From NCBI GenBank assembly GCA_947499715.1, contig CANMPL010000006.1, forward strand, positions 186,001 to 250,000: a stretch of DNA of 64,000 bases, written 5' to 3'. A program made the position numbers and the translations under genes. Of the stretch, positions 40,936 through 60,946 are shown one piece after another; positions within the stretch are counted from its first letter, which is position 1; every line of letters starts with the position of its first letter. The notes beneath the pieces are model-generated. The model saw nothing but the letters and a program-made list of their open reading frames with translations, had not been told where the DNA came from and made no database searches. The stretch comes from an uncultured Paracoccaceae bacterium. GTDB taxonomy: Bacteria > Pseudomonadota > Alphaproteobacteria > Rhodobacterales > Rhodobacteraceae.

Positions 40936-40959
40936 TGCGTGTCCTTTGATGAATGAATG

Positions 40960-42366: not shown

Positions 42367-42418
42367 CGCGTCCCCCCTCAGCGCATGACATTGGTGCATC
42401 GCGCGCGCTGCTCCAGAT

Positions 42419-42447
42419 AAGATATTCTAGTATACTAGTTCTGTCAA
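42419..42447 (-). promoter_or_regulatory. uxaC promoter with operator palindrome in the spacer
   Basis: On the minus strand TTGACA (42447-42442) and TATCTT (42424-42419) are separated by exactly 17 bases. The spacer contains CTAGTATACTAG (42427-42438), a perfect 12-bp palindrome. Related motifs occur at two other promoters in the locus, each beside a GntR-family gene, so repression by one or both GntR proteins is the natural reading. Confidence 0.75.
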
Positions 42448-42464
42448 ACGATGAGACGGTGGAT

Positions 42465-42983
42465 TTACGCGGTGCCGCGCACGGGGCGGTCGTTGGTGAT
42501 GTTGAAGATCATCCCGTCGAGGAATTCTTCAAGATCAGGCCGCGCAGCGGGGCCGTTTGAGATATCGACCAACATCAATGTGCCATCAGGGCGCATGGCA
42601 AAGGTGCCCGGTTCGGCGAAGTTTCTGTCGGTCTCTGCGTCTGATAGTGGCACGGTGACATGGAGGCCAAGGGTGCGCATTTGGGCCTCGGTCAGATCGT
42701 AGTAGAGGTCGAAATCCCAGCCGAATTCGTCCATGTCCGCTTGTGCTTTTTCTAGGGGATCGCCAGAGGCGACAACGACATCCATATGTTCTTCCCAATG
42801 GGGCAGCACCGCATTCAGCTTGTTTAGGAACCGTTTGCAGCGCGGGCAGTGTTTGCCGCGGTAGACGAACAGAACGCTCCATCTTTCACGGGGGCCGCCA
42901 ATGGTGATGGGGCTGTCAGACCCGACGTGCGGCAAGGTAAAGGGGGCGACGACGGCGCCAACGGCGGGTTTTGAATGGGGCAT
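42465..42983 (-). CDS. Thioredoxin-fold AhpC/TSA family redoxin
   Basis: The 172-residue protein has a peroxiredoxin-like fold: PAVGAVVAPFTLP at the start, then WSVLFVYRGKHCPRCKRFLNKL with a CxxC (Cys-Pro-Arg-Cys) where thiol peroxidases place the peroxidatic cysteine. GTFAMRPDGTLMLVDISNG is the later strand pair. It may reduce peroxides or disulfides in the cytoplasm; no signal peptide is present. It follows the GntR gene by 28 bases and so shares its transcript. Why a redoxin belongs to a uronate regulon is not clear. Confidence 0.78.
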   Translation of the reverse strand: MPHSKPAVGAVVAPFTLPHVGSDSPITIGGPRERWSVLFVYRGKHCPRCKRFLNKLNAVLPHWEEHMDVVVASGDPLEKAQADMDEFGWDFDLYYDLTEAQMRTLGLHVTVPLSDAETDRNFAEPGTFAMRPDGTLMLVDISNGPAARPDLEEFLDGMIFNITNDRPVRGTA

Positions 42984-43011
42984 CGGATGTCCTGACTTTG
43001 CTGCGACGTGG

Positions 43012-43692
43012 CTATTGAAAATACTCTGTGTGGGTCTCGTGGATGTCGGCAATCGTCGTGTCCAAACGGCTGACGTGCAGGCGCATGGCGGCGCGGGTGG
43101 CGTCCACATCGCGCTGAGAAAGGGCATCAGCGATGCTGCGATGATCGTCCAGAATATCCGCAGCGTTTTCGCTGTCGGCGAGGCTCAGCACACACAACCG
43201 GTCCACCTTGCGCTTGCAGGTCATGATGGCCTCAAACGCTTTGGGTAGGCCGGACAATTCACAGATCATTTTGTGAAACTCGTAGTCGAGGTCATGGAAC
43301 AATCCGCCGTCGCCCGCGGCAATGGCGTCGGCTTGCGCCGTCAGGTTTTTGGCAATGGCCTCTGTGTGCGTCTGATCCCAGACCTGACAGGCGCGCTCCA
43401 ATACCTCCAGCTCAACAGCCAATCGAATGAAGCGGACGTTCTCAATTTCAGGAAGGGAAAATCTGCGCACAACGGTCGCGCGCTGGGGGCGAATTTCGAT
43501 CAGGTCCTGATTGTGCAACCGCCGGAAAGCATCACGGACGGGCTGGCGCGATACGCCAAAACGCGTGGCAATCTCAGCTTCGGAAATCTTGGATCCGGGA
43601 AGAATTGCGAGCGTTGCGATGTCTTCGTAAAGCTTTTCAAAGACCACATCGGCAGTTGATTTTGATCCTGTGATCGCTGTGGAACTTTGCAT
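43012..43692 (-). CDS. GntR family (FadR subfamily) transcriptional regulator, copy 1
   Basis: The 226-residue regulator has an N-terminal winged helix with EAEIATRFGVSRQPVRDAFRRL and a C-terminal FCD ligand domain (DLDYEFHKMICELSG, DDHRSIADALSQRD). Metal/ligand histidines such as those in EFHKM and LHVSRLD are typical of FCD domains that bind small acids. AGGAG precedes the ATG at 43692. The HTH is nearly identical to that of the second GntR at 58.0 kb. It faces the divergent TRAP genes across a region with one operator-like motif, so uronate-responsive control is inferred. Confidence 0.88.
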   Translation of the reverse strand: MQSSTAITGSKSTADVVFEKLYEDIATLAILPGSKISEAEIATRFGVSRQPVRDAFRRLHNQDLIEIRPQRATVVRRFSLPEIENVRFIRLAVELEVLERACQVWDQTHTEAIAKNLTAQADAIAAGDGGLFHDLDYEFHKMICELSGLPKAFEAIMTCKRKVDRLCVLSLADSENAADILDDHRSIADALSQRDVDATRAAMRLHVSRLDTTIADIHETHTEYFQ

Positions 43693-43825
43693 TCTTACTC
43701 CTGTTTGCAGCTCGAAACCGCAGTGGTTCTGCGCCGATCGCCTGCACATCGCATCTGGCTGACCTGATTCTCGGCCCGCTCGAACATGTATTTTACTTCG
43801 CCAATACGAACAAATACCGACTCAC

Positions 43826-43854
43826 TTGACAAGTCTGGGATACTAGTCTCCAAT
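43826..43854 (+). promoter_or_regulatory. TRAP operon promoter with operator-like spacer
   Basis: TTGACA (43826-43831) is followed after 17 bases by TCCAAT (43849-43854, four of six matches to TATAAT). The spacer carries TGGGATACTAGT (43836-43847), with TACTAG at the same distance from the -35 box as in the uxaC promoter. It probably serves dctP and may also affect the divergent GntR gene. Confidence 0.6.
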
Positions 43855-43970
43855 TGGACAAGGCCGCAGGAATCCGTTGGGACTGACGAGGCCCGAAAGG
43901 TGCACACACGAACCCGTGGAGGAGCGGTTGACTGTTCAATCGCGCGCCGAAACTAAACTGGGAGAAGACT

Positions 43971-44954
43971 ATGTATCAGAAAATTTCAAAGACGATCCTG
44001 GGCACCGCCACAGCGTTGGCCCTTGTTGCATCCACTGCCGCTGCCGAAGAGTTGCGCGCCTGGAACATCCACACAGATGGCCACCCGAACACAGCCGCGA
44101 TGGACCGCTTTGCGGAACTGGTGGCCGAAAAAACCGGTGGCGACGTGAACGTTGAAGTATTCCACGGTGGTGTTCTGGGCAGCCAGCCTGACGCGCTTGA
44201 GCAGGTTCAGCTTGGTGCGATTGACGTTGGTAACTTTAACCTTGGTCCAATCGGCCCAATCGTTCAGGAAGCCAACCTTGTGTCTCTGCCGTTCATCTTC
44301 AAAAGCGTGGATCACATGTTCCGCGTGATGGATGGGCCTGCGGGTGAAAAGGTGGCTATGGGGATGGCCAATGCGGGCATCATGCCAATCGGTTGGTTTG
44401 ATGCGGGTGCGCGGTCTTTCTACAACAACACAGGTCCAATCAATTCACCTGACGATGTCGCTGGCATGAAAATCCGTGTGATGAACAACGATCTGTTCAC
44501 AGGCATGGTCAACGCCATGGGCGGCAACGGCACACCAATGGCCTTCGCCGAAGTGTACCAGTCCTTGTCCACCGGTGTTGTGGATGGCGCAGAAAACAAC
44601 CTGCCGTCGTTCCAGTCTGTGGGTCACTTCGAGGTGGCAGGATTCTATTCCCTGTCAGAGCACTTGATCATTCCTGAGTGTATCTGTGTGAACACAGCCC
44701 TGTTCGAAGGTCTGTCCGCCGACAATCAGGCGGCCCTTGTTGCAGCAGCCGAAGAAGCCTCCGTTTACCAGCGTGAGCTGTGGGCAGAGCAGACCCAAGC
44801 CAGCCGTAAAGCGGTTGAAGCGGCCGGTGTTCAGATCAACGAGATTGCCGACAAAGGCCCATTCCAGGTTGCAATGGCACCGGTCTATGCCGACTATCTT
44901 GCTGCCAACCCATCCATGGTTGAGCTGGTAGAATTGGCTCAGTCCACAGAGTAA
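43971..44954 (+). CDS. dctP: TRAP transporter solute-binding protein (DctP family), probable uronate binder
   Basis: The 327-residue protein has a signal peptide (to about ASTAAAEE) and the DctP fold. GMKIRVMNNDLF supplies the conserved arginine that pairs with the ligand carboxylate, and VVDGAENNLPSFQS the usual asparagine segment. It is periplasmic and passes substrate to DctQM encoded next. D-glucuronate or D-galacturonate is suggested by the surrounding uxaC, uxuA, uxuB and GntR genes and by the shared operator motif. It is inferred, not visible in the binding site. GGGAGAAGACT precedes the ATG. Confidence 0.88.
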   Translation: MYQKISKTILGTATALALVASTAAAEELRAWNIHTDGHPNTAAMDRFAELVAEKTGGDVNVEVFHGGVLGSQPDALEQVQLGAIDVGNFNLGPIGPIVQEANLVSLPFIFKSVDHMFRVMDGPAGEKVAMGMANAGIMPIGWFDAGARSFYNNTGPINSPDDVAGMKIRVMNNDLFTGMVNAMGGNGTPMAFAEVYQSLSTGVVDGAENNLPSFQSVGHFEVAGFYSLSEHLIIPECICVNTALFEGLSADNQAALVAAAEEASVYQRELWAEQTQASRKAVEAAGVQINEIADKGPFQVAMAPVYADYLAANPSMVELVELAQSTE

Positions 44955-44974
44955 CATCTGTGAAATACAACACC

Positions 44975-45004
44975 GCGGCGTCCGGCGATTTCGTCGGGCG
45001 CCGC
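44975..45004 (+). other. Strong hairpin between dctP and dctQ
   Basis: GCGGCGTCCGGCG (44975-44987) pairs with CGTCGGGCGCCGC (44992-45004) over 13 base pairs, two of them G-U, with an ATTT loop. No T-run follows. It is probably an mRNA-stabilising or processing structure that raises dctP over dctQM. Confidence 0.65.
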
Positions 45005-45026
45005 GCGTCTCAGGGGGCAGGATGAC

Positions 45027-45554
45027 ATGAGCAGCACACCAGAAAAGCAAACGGGCCTTGGCCCAATCGACAGTCTCTTTCGCGGCGTGGTCGCGGTGTG
45101 TCGCGTGATTACTGGGGTGGCTTTGGTCGTCATGACGCTGCTTCTGGGCTATCAGGTTTTTGGCCGATATGTACTGAACGACACGCCCACGTGGGTCGAC
45201 CCCTTGTCGCTATTGTTGGTGATGTTGATTGCGTTTCTCGGGGCAGGCATCGGTGTTTATGAAAACACCCATTTGTCGGTCGTAATTTTGCGCAAGACGG
45301 TTTCCACAAAAATCAGGTCCGTTCTGGTGGTGTTCACGGATGTCATCATGGCGGTCTTTGGCGGGTTGATGTTCTGGTATGGCTACCAGCTAACTGTGTT
45401 CAAATGGAAATCCCTGATCCCGCTTATCCAATGGCCAGAGGGCCTGCGATCCTTGCCGCTGACAATTTGTGGCGCGATGATTTTAGTTTTTTCCGTGGGC
45501 CATTTGGTCCGCCACCTGATCGGGCGTGACACGCGCACCGACACGATGGAATAG
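45027..45554 (+). CDS. dctQ: TRAP transporter small permease (DctQ family)
   Basis: The 175-residue protein has four helices with the DctQ pattern: LLLGYQVFGRYVLNDTPTWVDPLSLLLVMLIAFLGAG. The tryptophan-containing amphipathic start and the PLTICGAMILVFSVGHLV end are also typical. AGGATGAC precedes the ATG. It forms the membrane complex with DctM. Confidence 0.88.
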   Translation: MSSTPEKQTGLGPIDSLFRGVVAVCRVITGVALVVMTLLLGYQVFGRYVLNDTPTWVDPLSLLLVMLIAFLGAGIGVYENTHLSVVILRKTVSTKIRSVLVVFTDVIMAVFGGLMFWYGYQLTVFKWKSLIPLIQWPEGLRSLPLTICGAMILVFSVGHLVRHLIGRDTRTDTME

Positions 45555-45564
45555 GGCCTGATTG

Positions 45565-46845
45565 ATGGGACTTGCATTACTTTTAGGTGTCTTTGCCTTG
45601 TGTGTCGCTATGGGCGCGCCCGTTGCCTTTGCCTTGGGCATTTCCGCCATCGGCGCTTTCTGGTTCGAAGGTCTGCCCCTGATGGTGGGCTTTCAGCGGA
45701 TCATATCAGGCATCAACGTGTTTTCCCTGTTGGCGATCCCGTTCTTCATTTTCGCCGGAGAACTGATGTTCCACGGCGGCATCGCGATCCGCCTTGTGAA
45801 ATTCGCCCAAGCAGCGGTGGGCGCCGTGCGCGGCGGGCTTGGCATTGTGAACGTGTTGTCGTCGATGCTTTTTGGCGGGATTTCAGGCTCTGCCATTGCG
45901 GATATCTCAGCGCTCGGATCGATCCTGATCCCCGTGATGAAGGACAAAGGCTATGACGCGGATTATGCGGTGAACGTGACGGTGACGTCGTCCATTGCCG
46001 GCATCATCATTCCGCCAAGTCACAATATGATCATCTATGCGATCGCCGCCGGAGGCGCGGTGTCGATTTCCAAACTGTTCCTCGCAGGCGTCGTGCCCGG
46101 CATTCTTATGTGCATCTGCTTGGCGGCCGCCGCCTATATCGTCGCCGTCAAACGCGGATATCAGGCAGAGCAATTCCCTGGTTGGGATGCGCTGTTCTTT
46201 GCCTTCGTGGGCGCGATCCCTGGCTTGCTTACGGCGGTGATTATTGTGGGCGGTGTTTTGTCCGGCGTCTTCACGGTGACTGAATCCGGTGCCTTTGGTG
46301 TGATCTATGCCTTCCTTGTGACGCTGATCGTCTATCGCTCGATCACGTGGGAAAACTTCAAGATCGCAGTGAATTCCTCTGTGAGGACAACGGCGATGGT
46401 GATGATCCTGATCGCTTGCGCCGCTGCGTTCGCCTATATGTTGACCTATTACCGCGTGCCCACAAAGATGGTAACGCTGCTGACCACAATCACCGAAAAC
46501 CCCATCCTGATCCTGCTGATGATCAACGCTGTGTTGTTGTTGCTAGGCATGATCATGGATATGGCCGCGCTGATCCTGATTTGCACGCCGATCTTCCTGC
46601 CGGTGGCCCACGCGCTGGGGATCGACCCCGTACAGTTCGGGATGATCTTGCTGGTCAATCTTGGACTAGGGCTTTGCACGCCGCCCGTGGGGTCCTGTCT
46701 GTTTGTGGGCTGTGCCGTCGGAAAATTACCGATGGAGACCGCGATCCGCACGATCTGGCCGTTTTATCTGGCGATCTTTGTGGCGTTGATGATGATCACA
46801 TTCATCCCCGCGATCTCAATGACACTGCCGAACCTGTTGTTCTAG
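45565..46845 (+). CDS. dctM: TRAP transporter large permease (DctM family)
   Basis: The 426-residue membrane protein has about 12 helices. Family marks are FFIFAGELMFHGGIAIRLVKF, LFGGISGSAIADISALGSILIP and IIIPPSHNMIIYA, with the second-half repeat GMIMDMAALILICTPIFLPVA and LGLCTPPVGSCLFVG. The ATG at 45565 is preferred over the TTG one codon earlier. Its stop shares the tetranucleotide CTAG with the stop of convergent uxuA. Confidence 0.92.
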   Translation: MGLALLLGVFALCVAMGAPVAFALGISAIGAFWFEGLPLMVGFQRIISGINVFSLLAIPFFIFAGELMFHGGIAIRLVKFAQAAVGAVRGGLGIVNVLSSMLFGGISGSAIADISALGSILIPVMKDKGYDADYAVNVTVTSSIAGIIIPPSHNMIIYAIAAGGAVSISKLFLAGVVPGILMCICLAAAAYIVAVKRGYQAEQFPGWDALFFAFVGAIPGLLTAVIIVGGVLSGVFTVTESGAFGVIYAFLVTLIVYRSITWENFKIAVNSSVRTTAMVMILIACAAAFAYMLTYYRVPTKMVTLLTTITENPILILLMINAVLLLLGMIMDMAALILICTPIFLPVAHALGIDPVQFGMILLVNLGLGLCTPPVGSCLFVGCAVGKLPMETAIRTIWPFYLAIFVALMMITFIPAISMTLPNLLF

Positions 46846-47990
46846 GACAGCGCGGCGATGATGCCGCGCAGCTCTGCCAACCCGCGCAAGCGCCCGACAA
46901 GGGTGTAACCGGGTTGGAATGTGCGTTGATCGTCGGTCAGCAGCGCATGGCCATGGTCCGCACGAAACGGCAAATCAACATCGCGTTTGCTTTCGACCTC
47001 AAGCAGTTCGTCAATGACAGCGACGAGGTCCACATCACCGTTCAGATGCGCACTTTCGCTGAACGACCCGTCGGGCTGTTTGGCGAAAGTGCGCAGATGC
47101 ACGAAATGGATGCGATCCCCGAATGCGCGTGTAATGGCAGGGACGTCGTTTGTGGGGTGTGAGCCGAGCGATCCGGTGCACAGCGTCAGCCCATTCGCGG
47201 GTTCGTCGACGGCACCCATAATCCACGCGATATCCTCCGCAGTGGACACGATGCGCGGCAAACCCAGAATATTGCGGGGCGGATCATCAGGATGAATACA
47301 CAGGTTGATGCCAAGATCCGTCGCGGTCGGGATCACTTCCTCCAAAAACCGTTTGAGGTTGGCCCTCAGATCAGTGTGGGTCCGGCCAGCGTAACTGTCG
47401 AGCACGCCGCGTTGCCCCGCGATGTCATAGCGTTCCACAGCCCCAGGCAGGCCCGCCATGATCGTCGCCAATAGCTCTGCACGATCCGCTTCGGTGCTGG
47501 TTTCAAACCACGCCGTGCCGCCGGTTTTTGCGTCACTCGGATAATCTGCCTCAGCCCCATCGCGCCCGAGCATGTGGATTTCAAACGCCGCCATTTTGGC
47601 CGCGTCAAAGTGCAAACAGGTGCCGCCACGCGGGGCAGGGGCGGCGAGGTCCGTGCGAGTCCAATCGAGGATCGGCATGAAGTTGTAGCACACCGTTTTG
47701 ATGCCCTCGGCGGCGAGGTGTTTCAGCGATGTGCGGTAGTTGGCAAAAAGCGGTTCCAGATTGCCCGTGCCGCGCTTGATGTCCTCGTGAACCGGCAGAC
47801 TTTCGACGACATCCCATGTGAGGCCCGCGGCTTCAATCTCAGCGCGGCGCGCGGCAATCGCGTCTTGCGGCCAGACCTCACCATAAGGAATGGCGTGCAA
47901 GGCGCTGACGATGCCCACGGCCTCCGTTTGGGTGAACTCGGTCAATGTAACGGAGTCAAATTCACCGAACCAGCGCCATGTCTCACGCAT
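46842..47990 (-). CDS. uxuA: D-mannonate dehydratase (UxuA family)
   Basis: The 382-residue TIM-barrel enzyme dehydrates D-mannonate to 2-keto-3-deoxy-D-gluconate. TWRWFGEFDSVTLTEFTQT and VVESLPVHEDIKRG start it; NFMPILDWTRTDL, CIHPDDPPRNILGLPRIVST and HLRTFAKQPDGSFSESAHLNGDVD carry metal- and substrate-binding residues. It is the last gene of a run that begins with the ABC importer ATPase at 57.9 kb. A second, unrelated mannonate dehydratase (ManD) is encoded at 62.8 kb. Confidence 0.95.
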   Translation of the reverse strand: MRETWRWFGEFDSVTLTEFTQTEAVGIVSALHAIPYGEVWPQDAIAARRAEIEAAGLTWDVVESLPVHEDIKRGTGNLEPLFANYRTSLKHLAAEGIKTVCYNFMPILDWTRTDLAAPAPRGGTCLHFDAAKMAAFEIHMLGRDGAEADYPSDAKTGGTAWFETSTEADRAELLATIMAGLPGAVERYDIAGQRGVLDSYAGRTHTDLRANLKRFLEEVIPTATDLGINLCIHPDDPPRNILGLPRIVSTAEDIAWIMGAVDEPANGLTLCTGSLGSHPTNDVPAITRAFGDRIHFVHLRTFAKQPDGSFSESAHLNGDVDLVAVIDELLEVESKRDVDLPFRADHGHALLTDDQRTFQPGYTLVGRLRGLAELRGIIAALS

Positions 47991-48005
47991 TTTGGGCGTC
48001 CTTTG

Positions 48006-48914
48006 TTAGGGCAGAGTGTTTGGGTCAATCGCCACCAGCGCGCCACGTTCCTGCACGACAGCCCGTGACTTGGCACAGGCATAGGCGATGCCGTTTGCTA
48101 GCGTGTCGCCAGCGGCGTGGCAGGCGAATATGCCTGCGTTGAAACTATCGCATGCGGCGGTGGAATCGACCATTGTGTCAACGGGGTGCACGGCGACCTC
48201 ACCTGCTTCACCCCCTTGCGCAAACAGCACTGGGTCGGCCCCGTTCTTGACGATGACGGTTGTGGCACCCGCCGCAAGGTAGCGGTCCGCCGTGGCCTTT
48301 GGGGTCGCGTCTTTAAACCAATCAGCTTCGACTTCAAAGGACGGCAGGGCGATCTCGCTGACGGCAGCGCCTTGCATAATCGCATCCAGCATTTCCGCAC
48401 CTGACGCCCAAAGCCGTGGCCGCAAGTTGGGGTCAAAGGGGATTGTTTTGCCCGCGCTGCGTACCTTTTGCAGGGCGGTAAGCAGGGCAGCGCGGCGGTC
48501 GGGTACAAGGATCGCGAGGGTGATGCCGGAGAAATAGATCAGGTCCGCAGACGCCATCGCCGCATCCAACAAGACCGGATCGTCGGCCAGCGTTTTGGCC
48601 GCAGACTCGCCGCGCCAATAGGAAAAGCTGCGCTCGCCATCGCTGAGTGAGATCATGTAAAGGCCGATGGTCTTGCCCGCCGCGACCTGCACGAAGGCAT
48701 CATCAATCCCGCTGTCGCGCACAAACTCGGCCATCTGCGCGGACGTGGCATCATCGCCCACCGCCGTCAGGTAGGACACATGCACATTCGGCGCACAACG
48801 GGCCAGATACCAAGCGGTGTTGAACGTAACGCCTGCAAAGCCCAAGCGGAATTCAACCGCCGTGCCCGTGGGGGACAATTCGCCCATACATTCGCCAATC
48901 GCCAGAACGCGCAT
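48006..48914 (-). CDS. kdgK: 2-keto-3-deoxygluconate kinase (PfkB family)
   Basis: The 302-residue sugar kinase starts VLAIGECMGELSPTG and has YLTAVGDDATSAQMAEFVRDSGI, SGITLAIL and FDPNLRPRLW, all as in KdgK. The anion-hole/catalytic motif reads DSTAACDSFNAGIF. E. coli-type KdgK has AAGD, so a Cys replaces the Gly directly before the catalytic Asp. It would make KDPG for an Eda aldolase, which is not in the window. It sits between the SDR and uxuA in the ten-gene run. Confidence 0.88.
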   Translation of the reverse strand: MRVLAIGECMGELSPTGTAVEFRLGFAGVTFNTAWYLARCAPNVHVSYLTAVGDDATSAQMAEFVRDSGIDDAFVQVAAGKTIGLYMISLSDGERSFSYWRGESAAKTLADDPVLLDAAMASADLIYFSGITLAILVPDRRAALLTALQKVRSAGKTIPFDPNLRPRLWASGAEMLDAIMQGAAVSEIALPSFEVEADWFKDATPKATADRYLAAGATTVIVKNGADPVLFAQGGEAGEVAVHPVDTMVDSTAACDSFNAGIFACHAAGDTLANGIAYACAKSRAVVQERGALVAIDPNTLP

Positions 48915-48926
48915 GGGCAGCCCTTT

Positions 48927-49670
48927 TTAGGAGAACAGCATCCCACCGTTAAGGTCGATATTCGTGCCGGTCATGAACGCACTGTCATCGCACGCCAGAA
49001 ACAGCACGAGGTTGGCGGCGTCATCCACATGGCCTTGGCGTTTCATCGGGGCGTTTGCCTCGAACCCGCGACGGCCTGCATCGGGCGTGTGGATGTTGTG
49101 GAAATCCGTATCGATCATGCCGGGGCAAAGCGCGTTCACGCGGATGTCTGGGCCGACCTCTTTGGCCAATCCGCGCGTGAAGGTCATCACCGCTCCCTTG
49201 GACGTCGCATAGGCCAGTGAACCGGGCCCACCCCCATCGCGCCCGGCTTGGGAGGCGAGGTTGACCACAGCACCAGCCTTGATGTGCTCAAGGCAGGCCT
49301 TCGTCATCATAAACGTGCTGGTCAGGTTCAGCGTCATGACAGTGTTCCAATGGGCGAGATCCATTTCGGCAATCGTCTTGCGTGCAACCAGCCCGCCCGC
49401 GTTGTTGACCAGCACGTCGATGCCGCCAAAGGCCTCCAGCGTGGCGCTGACCAGTTTGTCGACGCCGTCCTGCAAGTTCAAATCGGCCTGAACGGCAATG
49501 GCTTTGCCCCCTGCGGCTTCGATATCTGCGACAACCGCGTCCGCGCCCATTGAGCTTTCGAAGTAGCTGATTGCGACGTTCGCGCCCTCGGATGCGAGTT
49601 TACGTGCGGCGGCAGCACCAATGTCGCGTCCGCCACCTGTGATGATGGCCGTTTTCCCTGCAAGTTTCAT
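48927..49670 (-). CDS. SDR oxidoreductase, candidate DEH (4-deoxy-L-erythro-5-hexoseulose uronate) reductase
   Basis: The 247-residue SDR has TGGGRDIGAAAARKL for cofactor binding, NNAGG, and a catalytic Ser/Tyr/Lys set in NLASQAGRDGGGPGSLAYATSKG. In an alginate-oligosaccharide operon with a PL15-like lyase and KdgF, an SDR next to kdgK is well placed to reduce DEH to 2-keto-3-deoxygluconate, as the Sphingomonas A1 SDR reductases do. The substrate is inferred from context only. An oxidative sugar-acid role is the main alternative. Confidence 0.78.
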   Translation of the reverse strand: MKLAGKTAIITGGGRDIGAAAARKLASEGANVAISYFESSMGADAVVADIEAAGGKAIAVQADLNLQDGVDKLVSATLEAFGGIDVLVNNAGGLVARKTIAEMDLAHWNTVMTLNLTSTFMMTKACLEHIKAGAVVNLASQAGRDGGGPGSLAYATSKGAVMTFTRGLAKEVGPDIRVNALCPGMIDTDFHNIHTPDAGRRGFEANAPMKRQGHVDDAANLVLFLACDDSAFMTGTNIDLNGGMLFS

Positions 49671-49685
49671 GTCAGTCCTTCCGAA

Positions 49686-50570: not shown

Positions 50571-50600
50571 AGATGCTCCGGTCTTTGGATCGTTATGAAA

Positions 50601-50933
50601 TTAAAGAAAATCTTCGCGATGCGGAGTGAAAATATCCAGCAACATGCCCGCTTCAAGGCAGGTTGCCCCATGTTCGATGTTGGGTTGTTTGTAAAGGCTG
50701 TCGCCCGCGTTGACGATGCAGGTTTTGTTGCCCACGGTGAATTCAAACTTGCCCGACATCACGTAGGTGATCTGTTCGTGGACGTGGTGGTGCAGGGGGA
50801 CCGTAACGCCCGCCTCAAAATGCACCTCGACGACCATGACATTGTCATTGTGCGCACAAACTTTGCGCGACAGCCCATCTGCGACGAGTTCCAGCTTGAT
50901 ATCCCCAGCGGGGAAGTGGTTCTTGACGGTCAT
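50601..50933 (-). CDS. kdgF: KdgF-like cupin, 4,5-unsaturated uronate linearisation
   Basis: The 110-residue single cupin has metal-ligand candidates in PLHHHVHEQITYVMSG (His48/His50, Gln54) and His88. The C-terminal Asp100-x-Phe102-x3-Arg106 matches the catalytic Asp/Phe/Arg set reported for Yersinia KdgF, two residues lower. KdgF opens the unsaturated monouronate left by polysaccharide lyases to DEH/DKI. It lies between the lyase gene and the dehydrogenase genes, the expected metabolic order. Confidence 0.85.
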   Translation of the reverse strand: MTVKNHFPAGDIKLELVADGLSRKVCAHNDNVMVVEVHFEAGVTVPLHHHVHEQITYVMSGKFEFTVGNKTCIVNAGDSLYKQPNIEHGATCLEAGMLLDIFTPHREDFL

Positions 50934-50943
50934 TATTCGGTCC

Positions 50944-53259
50944 TTACGTATTGGCGAGCTTTTTCATCACCACCTTGAACGTCTGTTCATCGGGGTCAGT
51001 GAAATAGAGATCGGCGTCATAGCCCTGATCGTCCATGAAATTGAAAATCCGTTTCGGCGCGTCGAGCTTGTAGGGCACAAGAAGCGTCGCGATCCGGTGG
51101 CGGGTGGCGGCGGGGTAGTGGGCCGTCAGACAGGTGCTGACGTGCAGGCCCTCGTAGTCCTCTGGGTCCACGTCGGTGAATTCGGTTTTCTGGCTGATCC
51201 TCGGCTTGCCGCCTTCAGACCAGACCACTTGGCCGTAGAACCCTGCCTTGTTTTGGGTGTTACGGAACGACGATTTGCCGAGATCATACGGGTTGTTGGC
51301 GTGCAGAAGCCAATCGATTGTTACGGGTGTTTCGGCGTCAACCTTGTCGATGATGACAAAGTAGGAATTGCGCACAAAATAAATCTCGCGCTCGGCTATG
51401 GTAACTTCGGGTGACAGGCTTTGGTAGGCGGCGGTGGCGTCGCCGTGGATGAACACGTGATCCTCACGTTCTTCCGCCGTAATGATGCGGCCATTGGCCG
51501 CCAGCGCGCGGGCCTTATCCTTTTCGGCATATTGCCCTTTGCCGTTGATCAGAATTGCATTTTTGGATCGCGTTTGGCGGCGCCAGTTGCGGTGCATCGA
51601 CGAATTGAAGGCTACGTAATAGCCCGACTGGATCGCCATATCCTCGCCATAGGCGGCCATGCAAAATGCGTTCTGGTCGCCGTGGCTGTGGCTGACGGAC
51701 CCGAATTTGGACGACTTGAACACGAACTGGATGTGGTTGTCCGGATCATCCATCGCAAGTTGCACGCCGACCCAGCCGATGCCCTTGAAATGGCGCAGGC
51801 CGCCCTTGGGGGGCGTGGCATCGATCACGGGGAAATCGGTCTGGAAGACCATTTCATCGAAATTCGTGTCCCACCAACCCCAATTGTAGAACGCCATTTC
51901 GGTGCCCGGATTGGTTTTCAGGTTCTCGTCGCAATACCACTGATAATCACCCTTGCCCGTGACGCCCGCAAACTGGCGCATGTTCAGCGCGGTTTTGATC
52001 GCGGGTAGATCGCCCAAGGCGCTGTCGTCGCCAAAGCTGGCGCGCCGCGTGTTGGGCGCGTTGCAAAACAGCGGGAAGTCGGCGGTGTTTTGCAGGAAGG
52101 GGCGTTTGTAGATGTCGATGCCTGTGTAGCTTTTCAGGCGGTTGGCCGCGTCGATGAGGTAGGCCATGCCCATCATCCAGTATTGCGCACCTTCGGCCCA
52201 GCCGCCGTCCGCATCGCCCCACGGGGAATAGACGTTGGACAGGAATTCGATGGCGTAGTTCAGCCAGTCGCGGGCTTCGTCGTCTTCATCATCACCCAGC
52301 AGCGCAATGCAGGCTGGCACGATACACAGGGACACAGAGCGCACCGCGTGGCTGTCATAAGGAAACAGGTGGATTTTCGCGTTATCGATCGCGTGCTCGG
52401 CGATGTCGCGGGTGCGTTCCAGCAAGGCCGCGCGCACGGTCGCGCGTTCATCATCCGACAGATCGTCATAAAGCCAGTCATAGCCCCACGCCAAAGCGTT
52501 GCAGACGCGGTAGGCCCATTCATCGGTATAGGCACGGGATGTGACACCCATTGGGTCCCAGCTTGCGGCCTCAAGCAGCCATTCCTTGGCGCGGGCGATC
52601 ATTTTGGCGTCACCTGTGACGCGACCACCGATGGCAAGGTGGCGCACGGCGTACCAATGTTCTTGAAGGTCAATGTAGGTCTGGCGCCACACGGGTGCGG
52701 TGCGTTGGTGGTTAGGGTAGCCTGCGGGTTCTTTCATCACATCGCGGTCCATCCAAGGGAGGACGGATTTTTCGTAAAACGTGGACCATGTGCAGTGATC
52801 GGGATCGGCCTGAACGGTCTTCTTGAAATCGGTAAGCTTGTCAGACGTCATCCAAAGGCGCGGATGGTCTTTGGCGACATGATCCAGTCGGGTCGCGCGG
52901 GCGGGCAGGGGTGTTTCGGGCAGTCCGTCGCTGACGGTGAAACCGCGCGTGCTGCTCCAGCCGCTGCTAGGGGCTTTGCCGTCCCATGTGGCGTAGGACC
53001 AATGGTACTCGCCCGCCGCCATCACCTGATCGGGGGTGAAAAAATTCAAAGGGATGTCTTCGAACACGGTTGTTTTGCCTTTGGGAAAGGCCGGATCGGT
53101 GGAGATGCGCAACACGTAGGATGCGGCATCTTCAATCACAGGCAACCATGTGAAACAGGGCGGGTTTTCGGTGACGTCGGTGTCAGCGGTCGGACTATAT
53201 TGAATAGTCAAACGCCCGGCATTTGGTTCATCAAGCAAAGGCAATGTGGTGGCCGACAT
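50944..53259 (-). CDS. Heparinase II/III-type polysaccharide lyase, PL15-like oligoalginate lyase
   Basis: The 771-residue protein has an N-terminal beta-domain, an alpha/alpha toroid (about 130-470) and a C-terminal beta-sandwich with the heparinase II/III region SSKFGSVSHSHGDQNAF. His304 (PYDSHAVRS), Tyr360 (AEGAQYWMMG) and His524 or His526 align in spacing with His311, Tyr365 and His531 of Agrobacterium Atu3025, a PL15 exolytic alginate lyase of nearly equal length. There is no signal peptide, so it acts in the cytoplasm on imported oligosaccharides. Other uronate-containing oligosaccharides cannot be excluded. It follows the binding-protein gene. Confidence 0.85.
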   Translation of the reverse strand: MSATTLPLLDEPNAGRLTIQYSPTADTDVTENPPCFTWLPVIEDAASYVLRISTDPAFPKGKTTVFEDIPLNFFTPDQVMAAGEYHWSYATWDGKAPSSGWSSTRGFTVSDGLPETPLPARATRLDHVAKDHPRLWMTSDKLTDFKKTVQADPDHCTWSTFYEKSVLPWMDRDVMKEPAGYPNHQRTAPVWRQTYIDLQEHWYAVRHLAIGGRVTGDAKMIARAKEWLLEAASWDPMGVTSRAYTDEWAYRVCNALAWGYDWLYDDLSDDERATVRAALLERTRDIAEHAIDNAKIHLFPYDSHAVRSVSLCIVPACIALLGDDEDDEARDWLNYAIEFLSNVYSPWGDADGGWAEGAQYWMMGMAYLIDAANRLKSYTGIDIYKRPFLQNTADFPLFCNAPNTRRASFGDDSALGDLPAIKTALNMRQFAGVTGKGDYQWYCDENLKTNPGTEMAFYNWGWWDTNFDEMVFQTDFPVIDATPPKGGLRHFKGIGWVGVQLAMDDPDNHIQFVFKSSKFGSVSHSHGDQNAFCMAAYGEDMAIQSGYYVAFNSSMHRNWRRQTRSKNAILINGKGQYAEKDKARALAANGRIITAEEREDHVFIHGDATAAYQSLSPEVTIAEREIYFVRNSYFVIIDKVDAETPVTIDWLLHANNPYDLGKSSFRNTQNKAGFYGQVVWSEGGKPRISQKTEFTDVDPEDYEGLHVSTCLTAHYPAATRHRIATLLVPYKLDAPKRIFNFMDDQGYDADLYFTDPDEQTFKVVMKKLANT

Positions 53260-53298
53260 AGGTCAGAAATCCCGCGGAAAATTGGAAACGTGAAAGCA

Positions 53299-53323
53299 CG
53301 GGGCGTCGCAGAGCGCCGCCCCG
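53299..53323 (-). other. Hairpin between the oligosaccharide-binding protein and lyase genes
   Basis: CGGGGCG (53299-53305) and CGCCCCG (53317-53323) form a 7-bp GC stem, 13 bases after the binding-protein stop on the minus strand. It resembles the hairpins after the other two binding-protein genes in the window and may set transporter stoichiometry. Confidence 0.5.
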
Positions 53324-53336
53324 AACCAGGAGGTAT

Positions 53337-54899
53337 TTAGCCGCCGTACTGACGGTCGTAGGCAGACTGCATCACAGCAAGCAGTTCTTGCATGCCCATC
53401 TCATCGAGGGTGGCGATGTAGTCATCCCAATCGGCCATGACGTCACCGTTGCCCAAGATCCAGCTTTGCTGACGCTCGAGCATGTAGTCACGGATCGTGC
53501 CCCATGTGCGGTCATAGACCTGCTGTTCGTCCGCCGTGAAGGCCACGCCGAGGAAGTCGGGGATCAGCAGTTCAGGCATCGTGTCATAAAGCGCGATACC
53601 TTCGAGGGCGAATTCGTTGCTCCACTGGATTTCGTAGTTGTAATCCTGGAAGTAACCACGGCCCTGAAGCTGTGAACCCACTTGGTACAGCGACCGGTTG
53701 ACCGGGCCCGCATCAAGGAATTCCTGCGTAAAGATCGGCTGGCCGTCGACCATTTCGTACTGCTGACCTTCGACGCCAAAGTTGGCCAAACGACGGCCTT
53801 CTTCGGTGAACCAGAAGTCAAAATACTTGATGGTTTCAACGAGGTGCTCGTTGGTGTGGCCAATGGCCCAACCGTCCGGTTTCACGAGGATACGACGGTG
53901 CTCTTCGATACGACGCCCTGTTGGGGACGCCGGTGGCAAGAAGGCCTCAAAGGCAAACCCTTCGATTTCCGAAGACAGGCGGTTGTAGCCCGATGTGGAC
54001 GCAAACCAGTCGTGTGTGGAGCCGCCAAGGTTTTCAGACAACAGGAAGTCACGCGCAGAAGACCCACGGGTGAAGATTTCTGCATCGATCAGGCCTTCGT
54101 CATACCAACGGGCGAGGTTTGCGATCCCTTCGCGGTAGCCTTCGCCGATGTAACCATGACCGATCTGGCCGTCTTCGATCAGGAAGTCGTGGTAGGTGTC
54201 AGACCCGTGCGCGCGGCCATCCCAAAGGGTTACAAGGCGGATGAGTTCTGGCCACTGGCGGGCAAAGAAGGGGACTTCGTCGGCTTCGCCGTTGCCGTTC
54301 GGGTCTTGTGTTTTGAAGGCACGCAGCACGGCTTCGTACTCGTCAACCGTTTCTGGCATCTCAAGGCCAAGGGCGTCGAGCCAATCTGTACGGATCCAGT
54401 AGGCGCGGCCATATTTGCCGTCGGGCAGATAGGGGATGTAGTACATCTGACCGTCAGATGCCTTAACAGCGGCTTCAATGTCAGGGCGTGTCGCGTAGTA
54501 GGCGGCGATGTTTGGCGCGTGCTCTGCGATCAGATCGTTGAGCGGCACAAACGCGCCTTCAGGGCCGTACTGGTTCACAAAGTCGCGGATCCGGCTGGAC
54601 CCAACAATGTCAGGAATTGTACCGGATGCGAGCATCAGGTTCAGCGCTTCGGTGCGACCTGTGTTTTCGTCTGTGCGCATGTTGGCACCGACGGTGTCAT
54701 TGATCAGGTGGATGCCTGTGAGTTCACGGGCGACCTGTTCCACGGGCCAGCTTTCCTCATAGATCGGATAGCGTGCATGGTTCATCTGGATGGTCAATTC
54801 CAGCGGCTCTTCGGTGATCATCAGATGACCATCCGCGAACGCCGGTGTTGTTATGGCACTCCCCGCGAGCAAGGCCGCCGTTAGGCATAGTTTACGCAT
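53337..54899 (-). CDS. AlgQ-like alginate-oligosaccharide ABC transporter solute-binding protein
   Basis: The 520-residue protein has a signal peptide (cleavage likely after TTPAFA) and is periplasmic. An EF-hand-like loop with Asp199, Asn201, Asn203, Glu205, Asp207 and Glu208 (DPNGNGEADEVP) corresponds to the structural calcium site of Sphingomonas AlgQ1/AlgQ2. The length is also AlgQ-like and longer than most sugar-binding proteins. It lies in the operon after the two permeases. It would capture oligoalginate or a related uronate oligosaccharide; the exact ligand is inferred from the lyase and catabolic genes. Confidence 0.87.
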   Translation of the reverse strand: MRKLCLTAALLAGSAITTPAFADGHLMITEEPLELTIQMNHARYPIYEESWPVEQVARELTGIHLINDTVGANMRTDENTGRTEALNLMLASGTIPDIVGSSRIRDFVNQYGPEGAFVPLNDLIAEHAPNIAAYYATRPDIEAAVKASDGQMYYIPYLPDGKYGRAYWIRTDWLDALGLEMPETVDEYEAVLRAFKTQDPNGNGEADEVPFFARQWPELIRLVTLWDGRAHGSDTYHDFLIEDGQIGHGYIGEGYREGIANLARWYDEGLIDAEIFTRGSSARDFLLSENLGGSTHDWFASTSGYNRLSSEIEGFAFEAFLPPASPTGRRIEEHRRILVKPDGWAIGHTNEHLVETIKYFDFWFTEEGRRLANFGVEGQQYEMVDGQPIFTQEFLDAGPVNRSLYQVGSQLQGRGYFQDYNYEIQWSNEFALEGIALYDTMPELLIPDFLGVAFTADEQQVYDRTWGTIRDYMLERQQSWILGNGDVMADWDDYIATLDEMGMQELLAVMQSAYDRQYGG

Positions 54900-54924
54900 T
54901 TGATTTCCTCCCAGTTGCGTTTCG

Positions 54925-55806
54925 CTATTCTTTCACACCCCCGAGCAGGATGCCTTTCTCAAAGTATTTCTGGATGAACGGGTAGACGATCAGCACGGGG
55001 ATGATCGAACAGACGATGATGGCCGCGGTGACCGTTTCGGCGCTGAATCCGGCGGCCGTTTGCACGATGGCAAATTCATCGTCATCGGACAGGGTTGCGA
55101 TGGTGTGGCGCAAGAACACTTGCAGCGGGATTTTGTCCTCGGATTGCAGCAGGACCATGGCCCAGAAGAACCCGTTCCAGCGCGACACGATGCAGAACAG
55201 CGTGATCGTGGCGATGGCCGGTTTGGACAGAGGCACAAAGACCTTCCACAGCACCTGAAAATCGTTCGCGCCGTCCATGCGGGCGGCTTCCTCGAAACTC
55301 TGCGGGATGGCCTCAAAGAAGTTGCGCAGCAGGATGATGTTGAACGCATTGACCGCAAAGGCGAGGATAATGCCGAACATGCTGTCGAGCAGGTTCAGAT
55401 CGCGCATGTTGAGGAAGAACGGGATGAGCCCTGCGTTGAACCACATGGTAAAGGCGATGAAGAGGTTGAAGAACCGCCGCCCCTTGAGCTGCGGACGCGA
55501 CAGGGCGTAGGCCCCCGGAATGATGAACAGCAACGACATGATCGTGCCGCCGATCGTGTAGATGAAGGTGTTGCGGTAGCTGATCCAGAATTTCGGGTCG
55601 CTTATGATGTAGCCGTAGGCTTCGAGCGTGGCATCAATCGGCGTCAGCACGACCTTCCCCGCTTGCGCGGCAAAACCCGAGCTGAACGACACCGCCGCGA
55701 TGTAGATAAACGGATAGAGTGTTGCGACCGTGAACATCCCAATCAGGATGGACACAACGATGGCGAAGAATTTGTCGCCTTGGGAATAGAGGTTCCATCT
55801 TTGCAT
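54925..55806 (-). CDS. ABC transporter permease (AlgM2/LplC-like)
   Basis: The 293-residue inner-membrane protein has six helices and the coupling EAA loop FEEAARMDGANDFQVLWKVFVPLSKP. The closing sequence FIQKYFEKGILLGGVKE is typical of the carbohydrate-uptake subfamily that includes AlgM2 and LplC. It pairs with the permease encoded 12 bases upstream. Confidence 0.88.
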   Translation of the reverse strand: MQRWNLYSQGDKFFAIVVSILIGMFTVATLYPFIYIAAVSFSSGFAAQAGKVVLTPIDATLEAYGYIISDPKFWISYRNTFIYTIGGTIMSLLFIIPGAYALSRPQLKGRRFFNLFIAFTMWFNAGLIPFFLNMRDLNLLDSMFGIILAFAVNAFNIILLRNFFEAIPQSFEEAARMDGANDFQVLWKVFVPLSKPAIATITLFCIVSRWNGFFWAMVLLQSEDKIPLQVFLRHTIATLSDDDEFAIVQTAAGFSAETVTAAIIVCSIIPVLIVYPFIQKYFEKGILLGGVKE

Positions 55807-55818
55807 TGGCCTACTCCC

Positions 55819-56781
55819 CTACCACAGTGATGTGCGCGAATAGCGGCGCGACAAGGTGTTGGCCGTCATCACCAGAACGAAGGCGACGAAAGCGTTGAAC
55901 AGACCCGCAGCGGCGGCCAGATCGTATTGACCCGATTGCAGACCCTGACGGTAAACCCATGTGTTAACCACATCCGCCGTTTCATAGGTGGCGGGCTGAT
56001 AGAGCAGGATCACGAGTTCGAACGACACTTCCATGACGTTGCCGATGCGGATGATCAGCATGATCAGGATCGTCGGCAGGATCGATGGAATGGTGATTTT
56101 CCACATCATCTGCCAGCGGTTCGCACCATCAACCACAGCACTTTCATAGAGCGACGGGTTGACCCCTGCGATGGCCGCAAGGAACACGATGGAGCCAAAG
56201 CCCGCCTCTTGCCAGATGCCCGTGCCCACAAAGATCGGGCGGAACCAATCCGGCTGGGTGAGGAAGTAAATGGAATCGAGGCCGAACCAGCCCATCACAG
56301 CATTGATCACACCCACTGTGGGCGAGAACGCCGTGATGACGATACCCGCGATAATCACAGACGAGATAAAGTGCGGTAAATAAACGATAGTTTGCGCCGT
56401 TCGCTTATAACTCGCATGGAGGATTTCGTTAAACATCAACGCAAGGATGATCGGGGCAGGGAAGCCAAACAGCAGATTGTAAAAGCTGATCGTGATGGTG
56501 TTCTTCACTGCACGGATGAAGGAATCGTTGGAAAACAGCGTTTGGAAGTGTTCCCAACCCACCCAAGGGCTGTTCGCCACACCTTTGAAGATCGAGTAAT
56601 CCTTGAACGCGATTTGCAGCCCGTACATCGGCTTATAAAGGAAGACGATGAACCAAATGATCGTGGGCAGCAGCATCAGATAAATCTGCCATTCGCGCCG
56701 GAAATGATCATAGAGCCGAACCAAACGCCCGTCGTCTCCGGTGCTGTCAGACTTGGCGGTGATGGGAGTGTCTTTGGCCAT
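55819..56781 (-). CDS. ABC transporter permease (AlgM1/LplB-like)
   Basis: The 320-residue protein has six helices after a cytoplasmic N-terminus. LLPTIIWFIVFLYKPMYGLQIAFKDY opens the first helix region and YESAVVDGANRWQMMWKITIPSILP is the EAA loop that docks the ATPase. It belongs to the LplB/AlgM1 group. It starts 5 bases after the ATPase gene. Confidence 0.88.
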   Translation of the reverse strand: MAKDTPITAKSDSTGDDGRLVRLYDHFRREWQIYLMLLPTIIWFIVFLYKPMYGLQIAFKDYSIFKGVANSPWVGWEHFQTLFSNDSFIRAVKNTITISFYNLLFGFPAPIILALMFNEILHASYKRTAQTIVYLPHFISSVIIAGIVITAFSPTVGVINAVMGWFGLDSIYFLTQPDWFRPIFVGTGIWQEAGFGSIVFLAAIAGVNPSLYESAVVDGANRWQMMWKITIPSILPTILIMLIIRIGNVMEVSFELVILLYQPATYETADVVNTWVYRQGLQSGQYDLAAAAGLFNAFVAFVLVMTANTLSRRYSRTSLW

Positions 56782-56786
56782 CTGCG

Positions 56787-57863
56787 TTACGCTCCGAGGG
56801 TCAACGCTTGGCCGGTTTCGGCGTCAAACAGTTTGACCAGATGGGACGGCACGTGGACTTCGCCAACACCGGACAAATGGCTGATGTCGCCGTTGGTGTC
56901 CGCCTTGAATACCATGGCATTGTCGCCGTGGCGCGCGTGCAGTAACGCCTCGGAGCCCAGCGGTTCCACCAGATCAAGGCTGATGGGCAAGGCGGAGGAG
57001 GGACCCTGCGCAGTGAGGGTCACATGTTCGGGGCGGATGCCCACAATGACGTCGCGGCCCGCGTTCGCAGCACTGGCCCCATCAATCAGAATTTCAGCAT
57101 CCCCGACAGTGGCACCCGTGGCCGTCATCGTGCCTTTCATCTGGTTCATCGGTGGGGAGCCAAGGAAGCTCGCGACAAAGGTATTCGCCGGATTGTTGAA
57201 CAATTCCATCGGCGTGCCGACCTGTTCGATGTTGCCATCGTTCATGACGACAATGCGGTCGGCCAGGGTCATGGCCTCAACCTGATCGTGTGTCACGTAA
57301 ATCGACGTCACCCCAAGGCGGTTGTGCAGGCGCTTGATTTCGGCGCGCATCTGGGTGCGCAGCTTGGCATCGAGGTTGGACAGTGGTTCATCAAACAGGA
57401 ACACCTTCGGGTGGCGTACAATTGCGCGGCCCATGGCGACACGCTGACGCTGCCCGCCGGACAAATCCGCAGGGCGGCGATCCAGGTAGGGCGTCAGGCC
57501 AAGGATTTCTGCGACGTCATCAATGGTGGTTTTGATTTCGGCCTTAGGCATCCTGCGAATGCGCAACCCGAACGCCATATTGTCGGCCACGTTCAGATGC
57601 GGATAAAGCGCGTAGTTCTGGAATACCATCGCAACATCGCGGTCTTTTGGGGCCACGCGGTTTATCCGCCGCCCGTCGATAATAAGGTCACCGCTAGTGA
57701 TTTCCTCGAGCCCCGCAATCATTCGCAGCGTGGTGGATTTCCCGCAGCCCGAGGGCCCCACAAGGACGACGAATTCCTTTTCCTGAACATCAAGGTCGAT
57801 CCCGTGGACGACCTGTAAAGCCCCGTAAGCCTTAACGATTCCGCTTAGATTAACCCCGGACAT
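56787..57863 (-). CDS. ABC transporter ATPase (AlgS/UgpC/MsmK-like)
   Basis: The 358-residue ATPase has Walker [12 protein letters not shown]-loop [11 protein letters not shown], signature [15 protein letters not shown], Walker [15 protein letters not shown] and the switch histidine YVTHDQ. A C-terminal regulatory (TOBE-type) domain follows from about 240 with [18 protein letters not shown] lies just ahead of the ATG at 57863. It is the first gene of the ten-gene minus-strand run and is directly downstream of three operator-like motifs. Confidence 0.92.
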
Positions 57864-57926
57864 CGTCCCCTCCCACATGGTACCTTAAACGGGCAATCTG
57901 GCTCCTTCGAATCGCCCTCTTACGTC

Positions 57927-57971
57927 TGGTATACTAGTCTGTGAACTGCAATACTAGTCTGGTATACTAGT
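57927..57971. promoter_or_regulatory. Three operator-like motifs in the divergent ABC importer/GntR-2 promoter region
   Basis: TGGTATACTAGT occurs at 57927-57938 and 57960-57971, and CAATACTAGT at 57949-57958. Relatives are TGGGATACTAGT at 43836 and CTAGTATACTAG at 42427. The cluster lies between the importer operon and the second GntR gene, so it can control both. On the minus strand TTCACA with a 17-base gap to TAAGAG surrounds the leftmost copy and could be the importer promoter. Confidence 0.75.
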
Positions 57972-60147: not shown

Positions 60148-60164
60148 CCTTTACGGAGCACCAC

Positions 60165-60920: not shown

Positions 60921-60946
60921 GCCGACGCCTACGAAAGGAGGGCAAC

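Follow-up and report, generated by a model that had tools for sequence, protein, structure and literature searches.

A near-palindrome shared by the promoters of an alginate and hexuronate locus in Rhodobacteraceae, a candidate operator of two paralogous GntR repressors

We analyzed a 64,000-nucleotide stretch of the genome of an uncultured Paracoccaceae bacterium (contig CANMPL010000006.1, positions 186,001 to 250,000; hereafter the window) that carries genes for alginate and uronate use, together with five copies of a short element that we call O1 to O5 (Table 1). Judged by its relatives, the organism belongs to the Rhodobacteraceae/Roseobacteraceae and is probably marine. All five copies, placed by both sequence reading and pattern search, are intergenic and occupy three gaps that face five gene starts. 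O1 lies about 27 bp upstream of uxaC, ahead of uxaC-kduI-uxuB. O2 lies in the divergent gntR1/dctP gap, upstream of both genes, about 85 bp from gntR1 and 124 bp from dctP. O3, O4 and O5 all fall within the malK/gntR2 gap, where O4 is 20 bp from O3 and 13 bp from O5. An earlier note, made from the DNA sequence alone, had placed sites in these same three gaps, and the word it reported at 57949, CAATACTAGT, falls within O4.

On the gene content returned by profile and structure-sequence searches, the locus is predicted to be mainly an alginate-oligosaccharide system, joined to a hexuronate branch, with both leading to 2-keto-3-deoxygluconate (KDG). It is more than the uronate locus of the earlier note. 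In the structure-sequence search the importer's binding protein matched AlgQ1 (E = 4.4e-151), and the lyase matched the oligoalginate lyase 3a0o, which we take to be Atu3025, with 1051.7 bits over query residues 7-767. The permeases and ATPase of the importer were identified by Pfam. The locus thus holds the components that mark a Sphingomonas A1/Agrobacterium-type alginate locus: an AlgQ-like protein, permeases, an ATPase and a 3a0o-like oligoalginate lyase. The KdgK-like kinase scored below its curated profile cut-off. From position and fold family we infer that the small cupin between the lyase and the reductase (50601-50933) is KdgF-like, and the roles of the HIBADH-like and SDR reductases are likewise presumptive. 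The closest TRAP binding proteins were reportedly solved with glucuronate or galacturonate.

Table 1. Candidate operators, promoters and genes of the locus, numbered from the first nucleotide of the window (DEH, 4-deoxy-L-erythro-5-hexoseulose uronate; HTH, helix-turn-helix; ORF, open reading frame)
Feature	Position	Strand	Details
O1	42427-42438		CTAGTATACTAG; extended TCTAGTATACTAGT, 42426-42439; minus-strand reading ACTAGTATACTAGA, T at position 6
O2	43836-43847	+	TGGGATACTAGT; extended TCTGGGATACTAGT, 43834-43847; G at position 6, GntR1-type variant
O3	57927-57938	+	TGGTATACTAGT; extended TCTGGTATACTAGT, 57925-57938; malK-proximal
O4	57947-57958	+	TGCAATACTAGT; extended ACTGCAATACTAGT, 57945-57958; weaker middle site
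O5	57960-57971	+	TGGTATACTAGT; extended TCTGGTATACTAGT, 57958-57971; gntR2-proximal, 33 bp from O3
uxaC promoter	42419-42447	-	TTGACA 42447-42442; 17-bp spacer holding O1; TATCTT 42424-42419
dctP promoter	43826-43854	+	TTGACA 43826-43831; 17-bp spacer holding O2; weak -10 TCCAAT 43849-43854; read by eye
CGATTCG (YGAKTCG)	57908-57914	-	holds GANTC 57909-57913; 11 nt beyond O3 towards malK
uxaC (glucuronate isomerase), kduI (DEH isomerase), uxuB-like mannitol/fructuronate dehydrogenase	38738-42399	-	profile search
gntR1	43012-43749	-	GntR HTH + FCD regulator; Pfam profiles
dctPQM	43971-46845	+	TRAP transporter
uxuA, kdgK-like kinase, SDR, HIBADH-like reductase	within 46842-57878	-	
Cupin, PL15-type oligoalginate lyase, AlgQ-like binding protein, two permeases, MalK/AlgS-like ATPase	within 46842-57878	-	
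gntR2	58023-58715	+	GntR HTH + FCD regulator; start taken as ATG 58023, mechanical ORF start TTG 57972
MATE transporter, SDR, ABC exporter	58774-62824	+	downstream of gntR2

The extended sites share the pattern WCTRGNATACTAGT, a near-palindrome with a GT-N2-AC core that O4 fits with one mismatch. TRGT and ACTA flank a central AT, a spacing of 2, at O1, O3 and O5, and the left half is imperfect in O2 and O4. In the window, ATACTAGT occurs five times, always at an operator site (0.12 expected; none of 100 shuffles reached five), and TGGTATACTAGT with up to two mismatches gives six matches at five places (0.47 expected). Across the whole genome (G000, 4,017,392 bases), with the reversed word as control, TGGTATACTAGT with at most one mismatch occurs at four places, all in the locus (control 15), and ATACTAGT at seven, five of them in the locus (control 74). 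The tight motif is thus nearly absent elsewhere, and the many random genomic copies that the earlier note named as a counter-indication did not appear. At two mismatches, 37 genomic matches (control 310) are mostly scattered; specificity is therefore limited to the tight motif, and we claim no distant regulon member from these matches.

Other palindromes of the form TNGTATACNA in the genome were not counted, because none has CTA/TAG arms on both sides. One, at C2:340629 (L053 around 4629), is a perfect TATGGTATACCATA between a different GntR/FCD-like gene and another gene; its core is the same, but it probably belongs to an unrelated FCD regulator. Another, at C2:231638, is part of a longer inverted repeat, a double palindrome at C5:186025/186035 precedes a gene read as isocitrate dehydrogenase, and a fourth, at C14:4426, lies inside an ORF, as does the match at C6:185894, which was also set aside. 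Separately, a half-site ATACTAGT at C1:204993 (L056 around 4993) lies in the divergent gap between an apparent TRAP binding-protein gene and a GMC-type oxidoreductase gene, and is a possible weak regulon member. Gene names beside these genomic palindromes and the half-site are our reading of the proteins, not search results.

Two of the promoters have a common geometry, in which the element fills the spacer between TTGACA and the -10. The uxaC promoter was found by a consensus scan blind to the motif, with 10 of 12 consensus matches; it was the single hit in the scanned region, where shuffling predicts 0.5. At the TRAP promoter, two bases separate TTGACA from the 14-bp operator. Across offsets from -60 to +60, a TTGAC starting 15 nt before the operator centre was the most frequent arrangement, with 11 occurrences against 4 for the next. 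A script recovered the same spacer geometry in 13 of 20 site-bearing DctP promoters, and two further DctP promoters, L132 and L131, show it by eye. Promoter occlusion is accordingly the best mechanism for the uxaC and TRAP promoters, since a repressor bound in the spacer and RNA polymerase should exclude each other.

The malK/gntR2 gap is laid out differently, with two full sites 33 bp apart and often a weaker site 20 bp from the first. In the 260 bp upstream of each of 38 GntR2-type genes, the prevailing site spacings were 20 (19 pairs), 33 (11) and 13 (9). A further peak at 8 bp (11 pairs) arises from self-overlap of the palindromic ACTAGT and was ignored.

Relatives were reached in two ways. 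Starting from the motif, exact TRGTATACTAGT was present in 20 of 149 family genomes, the source genome included, and in 17 of the 20 it adjoins homologues of window genes. A GntR2 homologue (E <= 1e-40) is encoded somewhere in 16 of the 20 motif genomes, as opposed to 20 of 128 others. Starting from the regulator, 29 loci were chosen by GntR2 sequence in named genomes, and 27 were kept at 50% identity or more; a site with at most one mismatch was present in 26 of these. The 27 loci hold 57 sites in all, where a first-order Markov model expects 0.5 and the reversed word gives 5; the two dropped loci (26-27% identity to GntR2) have no site. Within the genus, motif and GntR2 occur together in four of six genomes, and the other two have neither. 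Pooling 48 loci, in a tally that counts at least one genome twice (L123 and G120 are one genome reached twice, as are L124 and G483), no tblastn match to a window gene contains any of the 96 sites, and 8 sites have no window-gene start within 330 bp. The regulator is rare outside the family: 3 of 337 genomes of the class, mostly from other families, gave a match, one of them of another family.

Both regulators have the domain make-up of FCD-type GntR proteins. HTH and FCD domains score 59.5 and 74.6 bits in GntR1 and 60.2 and 68.4 bits in GntR2, against cut-offs of 27 and 24.3. These domains, a TKGT/ACMA-type palindrome and an operator beside the regulator gene, all seen here, are features of the FadR/FCD subfamily. 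The two proteins are 49% identical and share the stretches SRQPVRDAF and IRPQRAT, which are near-invariant over 58 proteins. In a tree of 78 homologues, 40 rows form the GntR2 group and 14 the GntR1 group (98/91). Sixteen of the 24 others make up a set that was not recovered as one clade, and 15 of these 16 come from uxaC loci of other genera.

From the motif and how rare it is, its presence alongside the regulators, the promoter geometry and the array spacing, we consider that the sites are very probably (roughly 0.88) operators of two paralogous GntR repressors of the FadR subfamily encoded in the locus, which would recognize the near-palindrome, act by promoter occlusion and be released by an acidic intermediate. 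A dimer of a GntR repressor would bind WCTRGNATACTAGT; occupying the spacer at the uxaC and TRAP promoters, it would block RNA polymerase, and at the malK/gntR2 sites it would control both directions, including autoregulation of gntR2. The ligand that frees it may be an acidic breakdown intermediate of alginate or uronate, such as DEH, KDG or 2-keto-3-deoxy-6-phosphogluconate (KDPG). GntR2 would probably govern mainly the alginate importer side, and GntR1 the TRAP side.

Several observations weigh against this assignment. At the promoters, the consensus scan missed the dctP promoter, whose -10 is too weak for it, and in the malK/gntR2 gap the same kind of scan located neither the malK nor the gntR2 promoter, its single weak promoter-like match (minus strand, 58043-58014) being upstream of all three sites. 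Among relatives, 7 of the 38 GntR2-type genes have no site (up to three mismatches) in the 260 bp upstream, and most of these loci have one elsewhere in the fetched stretch. L145, one of the 27 regulator-chosen loci, has no site within one mismatch (best, two); no operator was found ahead of the malK homologue in five loci (L135, L139-L142) or at 11 of 31 DctP genes examined. Three of the 20 motif genomes (G007, G033, G053) have no window homologue beside the site, the GntR2 homologue of G007 being distant and on another contig. In G084 and G078 the neighbor is a 47-49% UxuA homologue, with no close GntR1/2 homologue. Several relatives' sites overlap mechanically called ORFs. It is also possible that a protein other than the neighboring GntR proteins binds the sites, though these are the obvious binders.

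The alternative that survives best keeps the two regulators and separates their targets: GntR1 would see TCTGGGATACTAGT (TRAP and uronate genes) and GntR2 TCTGGTATACTAGT (the alginate importer), as two regulons with near-identical operators and limited cross-binding. We put even odds on it. Sites adjacent to GntR2-type regulators are mostly ACTGGTATACTAGT and those adjacent to GntR1-type regulators mostly ACTRGSATACTAGT. The best site upstream of GntR2-type genes is within one mismatch of the shared pattern in 31 of 40 cases, 19 with T at position 6; for GntR1-type genes this holds in 12 of 14, one with T (p = 0.002). At DctP promoters with a site of at most one mismatch, base 6 tracks the regulator type, being G in all eight beside a GntR1-type gene and in none of seven beside a GntR2-type gene (five T, two A; p = 0.007 for T versus other and, by hand, about 0.00016 for G versus other). 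Not counted there are a promoter that has both types nearby (G) and three that lack a regulator within 3 kb (G, C, T). Five of 148 family genomes contain exact CTGGGATACTAGT, four of them at the gntR1/dctP gap, and the genus relatives G483, G484 and G486 keep the G. Although the HTH core is common to both, residues 57, 60 and 77 differ between the GntR1 and GntR2 groups.

Against full separation, both groups have the same recognition helix, and each has exceptions at base 6: T at one GntR1-type promoter (L041) and G at two of the GntR2 type. Moreover, a regulator gene and its adjacent promoter are linked and inherited together, so shared ancestry could yield the same base-6 pattern. GntR1 is the probable binder of O2 and GntR2 of O3-O5, and, with two sister regulators whose operators appear to differ at one base, two overlapping regulons are likelier than one. 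The earlier note had drawn all sites into a single regulon; the shared GntR-type operator, seen also in relatives, does tie the three gaps together, and it is the singular that probably has to go.

The remaining explanations were rejected. The sites might be direct-repeat operators of the NanR type, built from TGGTATAW repeats, since the letters are similar, the array at 57.9 kb is multi-copy and NanR is a weak profile and sequence match of the regulators. This is improbable: O1 and O2 are single inverted-repeat sites, the 20/13/33 array is not one of contiguous repeats, and the regulators score 66.8 and 61.5 on the NanR profile, whose cut-off is 260. Slightly less credible still is that TGGTATACT is a promoter element, an extended -10, which TG-N-TATACT resembles. 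The word has no close copies in the rest of the genome and reads as a near-palindrome; two promoters hold it inside the spacer of a TTGACA-17-(-10) arrangement, which would leave TTGACA only about 7 nt from it. Chance repeats or a small mobile element, suggested by three near copies within 45 bp at 57.9 kb, can be dismissed, as the sites recur at the orthologous promoters of many genera, in gaps that have otherwise diverged, 57 where 0.5 are expected.

Control by GntR repressors at uxaC takes a different form in many relatives, which use a sister regulator with ACTAGCATATTAGT. In other genera (L091-L113) this sister GntR gene is divergent from uxaC and its operator ACTAGCATATTAGT apparently overlaps the -10 region. 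Sites beside uxaC include six exact copies of ACTAGCATATTAGT, and 14 of 16 match ACTRGNATAYTAGT with at most one mismatch, T standing at position 10 in 13 of the 14. CTAGCATATTAGT was found in 9 of 148 genomes at ten places, eight of which immediately precede uxaC. Of 31 uxaC genes, 16 have a GntR1/2 homologue beside them, and 15 of these 16 have an upstream site (up to two mismatches); the other 15 lack the homologue, and none of them has a site. Within this set of 31, T at position 6 of such a site is seen at the window's uxaC alone. In the genus relatives G483 and G484, uxaC lies in the same region with no site ahead of it, and in G049 the site found at the window's uxaC lies about 0.45 kb upstream of kduI. 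On these comparisons, operator control of uxaC looks like a local rewiring in this lineage.

How far control by the five sites would reach depends on operon extents. The earlier note had assigned all catabolic and transport genes from 38.7 to 64 kb to them; with co-directional genes and short gaps this is plausible to 62.8 kb, and beyond that the minus-strand ORF at 63220-63903 has no Pfam match and no link to any operator site. A MATE-family transporter gene follows gntR2 or adjoins the importer in many relatives; as a guess, it might export reactive DEH. Between gntR1 and uxaC lies an AhpC/TSA redoxin-like ORF (42465-43127) that, as called, overlaps the end of gntR1; its true start is probably later.

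A second signal stands at the malK promoters, which in alignment show GATTCG or CGAATC shortly after the operator. A GANTC lies within 30 nt beyond the operator in 26 of 30 operator-bearing malK promoters (2.8 expected by shuffling), 23 of the 26 at 8-14 nt, and mostly as the GcrA-type word YGATTCG. In this set the malK-proximal operator was picked by script (an alternative pick puts L145 at 4 nt), and the malK genes of L139-L142 fall outside the 30. When the stretches from operator to start codon were filtered at 70% gapped identity, 23 of the remaining 27 promoters had GANTC, which was the commonest of all 136 XXNXX words there (median 4). CGAATC occurs in 26 of 34 malK promoters (last 110 bp; 0.7 expected) and is the top 6-mer after six pieces of the operator. 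YGAKTCG is found at 25 of 34 malK promoters versus 1 of 33 for dctP, 1 of 37 for SDR and none for uxaC (26 promoters), the lyase (29) or the binding protein (28). Upstream of regulator genes the counts are 2 of 7 for GntR1 and 4 of 75 for GntR homologues.

Because the columns were anchored on GANTC, its four letters are conserved by construction, and the counts, middle base and flanks are the informative part. Only T (16) and A (9) occur as the middle base; the preceding base is C or T in 23 of 25 and the following base G in 19 of 25, with outer columns falling to background. Both orientations occur, as expected for a symmetric methylation site. The 64-kb window has only four YGAKTCG words. 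One of them, at 43818-43824, lies just upstream of the TRAP -35, where no conservation was seen in the relatives examined.

The malK promoters thus carry the conserved YGAKTCG/GANTC word that marks candidate GcrA/CcrM promoters, and ccrM and gcrA are present in most Rhodobacterales, according to the relevant part of PMC4046655. In the portions of PMC7987155 that bear on this point, GcrA is proposed to activate methylated TGATTCG/YGAKTCG promoters in Caulobacter, no such preference is seen in Brevundimonas, and regulon conservation is poor; the presence of the word alone is described as no effective proxy, and cross-species conservation as a possible one. The malK promoters resemble those Caulobacter promoters in their extended GANTC site (PMC7987155, same portions). 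The targets named there are diverse, a number of them replication and division genes, whereas the gene here encodes a nutrient importer and the site is a candidate by sequence. We tentatively raise a possibility that we regard as rather doubtful: that the importer promoter in marine Rhodobacteraceae is a two-input gate, combining an FCD GntR repressor with a CcrM/GcrA site (YGATTCG) about one helical turn downstream. GntR might shield the site from methylation, or GcrA might activate only when it is methylated, and alginate uptake would then be coupled to the cell cycle or epigenetically bistable.

The candidate operators resemble known FadR/FCD operators. PMC4494728, in the parts compared, gives FadR-subfamily sites as TKGT/ACMA, in which 2 or 3 nt separate GT from AC, and lists the 2-nt spacing for GntR, HpxS, HypR, MdcY, PrpR and UxuR. 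Common to those operators and the present ones are a GT/AC near-palindrome, divergon sites beside regulated operons and weaker extra boxes; the outer arms ACTR/YAGT and the 20/33-bp array are the window's own, and those same parts of PMC4494728 contain no such motif. A search at the level of titles and abstract beginnings, with the motif words and with Rhodobacteraceae/Rhodobacterales uronate or alginate GntR regulons, did not find the operator sequence in print; the exact motif words led to an unrelated plant paper. The profile score and the 20/13/33 spacing set GntR1 and GntR2 apart from NanR. Like GntR1/2, UxuR and ExuR of E. coli, whose operator core is TGGTATACCA, are FCD GntR repressors of uronate genes; unlike them, GntR1 and GntR2 score 20.8 and 22.4 bits on the NCBIfam Uxu-operon regulator profile, whose cut-off is 442.

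Two regulators of alginate genes are comparable by description. AlgO of Sphingomonas sp. A1 is a repressor of the GntR family. PMC8286568, in its relevant part, presents AlgO as a transcriptional regulator within an AlgQ/AlgM/AlgS-type alginate locus, and it is this setting that likens it to the regulators here. AusR of Zobellia galactanivorans, a member of the Bacteroidota, is a GntR repressor of alginate genes that binds operators present in one, two or three copies and that products of alginate breakdown release (PMC8286568 and PMC7874173, relevant parts).

Taken together, the sequence comparisons indicate FCD-GntR control of a standard kind, probably exerted by two regulators with slightly different operator dialects. 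They yield a candidate operator that is specific and spans genera, for the use of alginate and hexuronates in a marine family. With a near-constant recognition helix and operators one or two bases apart, the sister regulators form a natural series and a tractable case of paralogue divergence. If functional, the GANTC at the malK promoters would link polysaccharide foraging to the alphaproteobacterial methylation clock.

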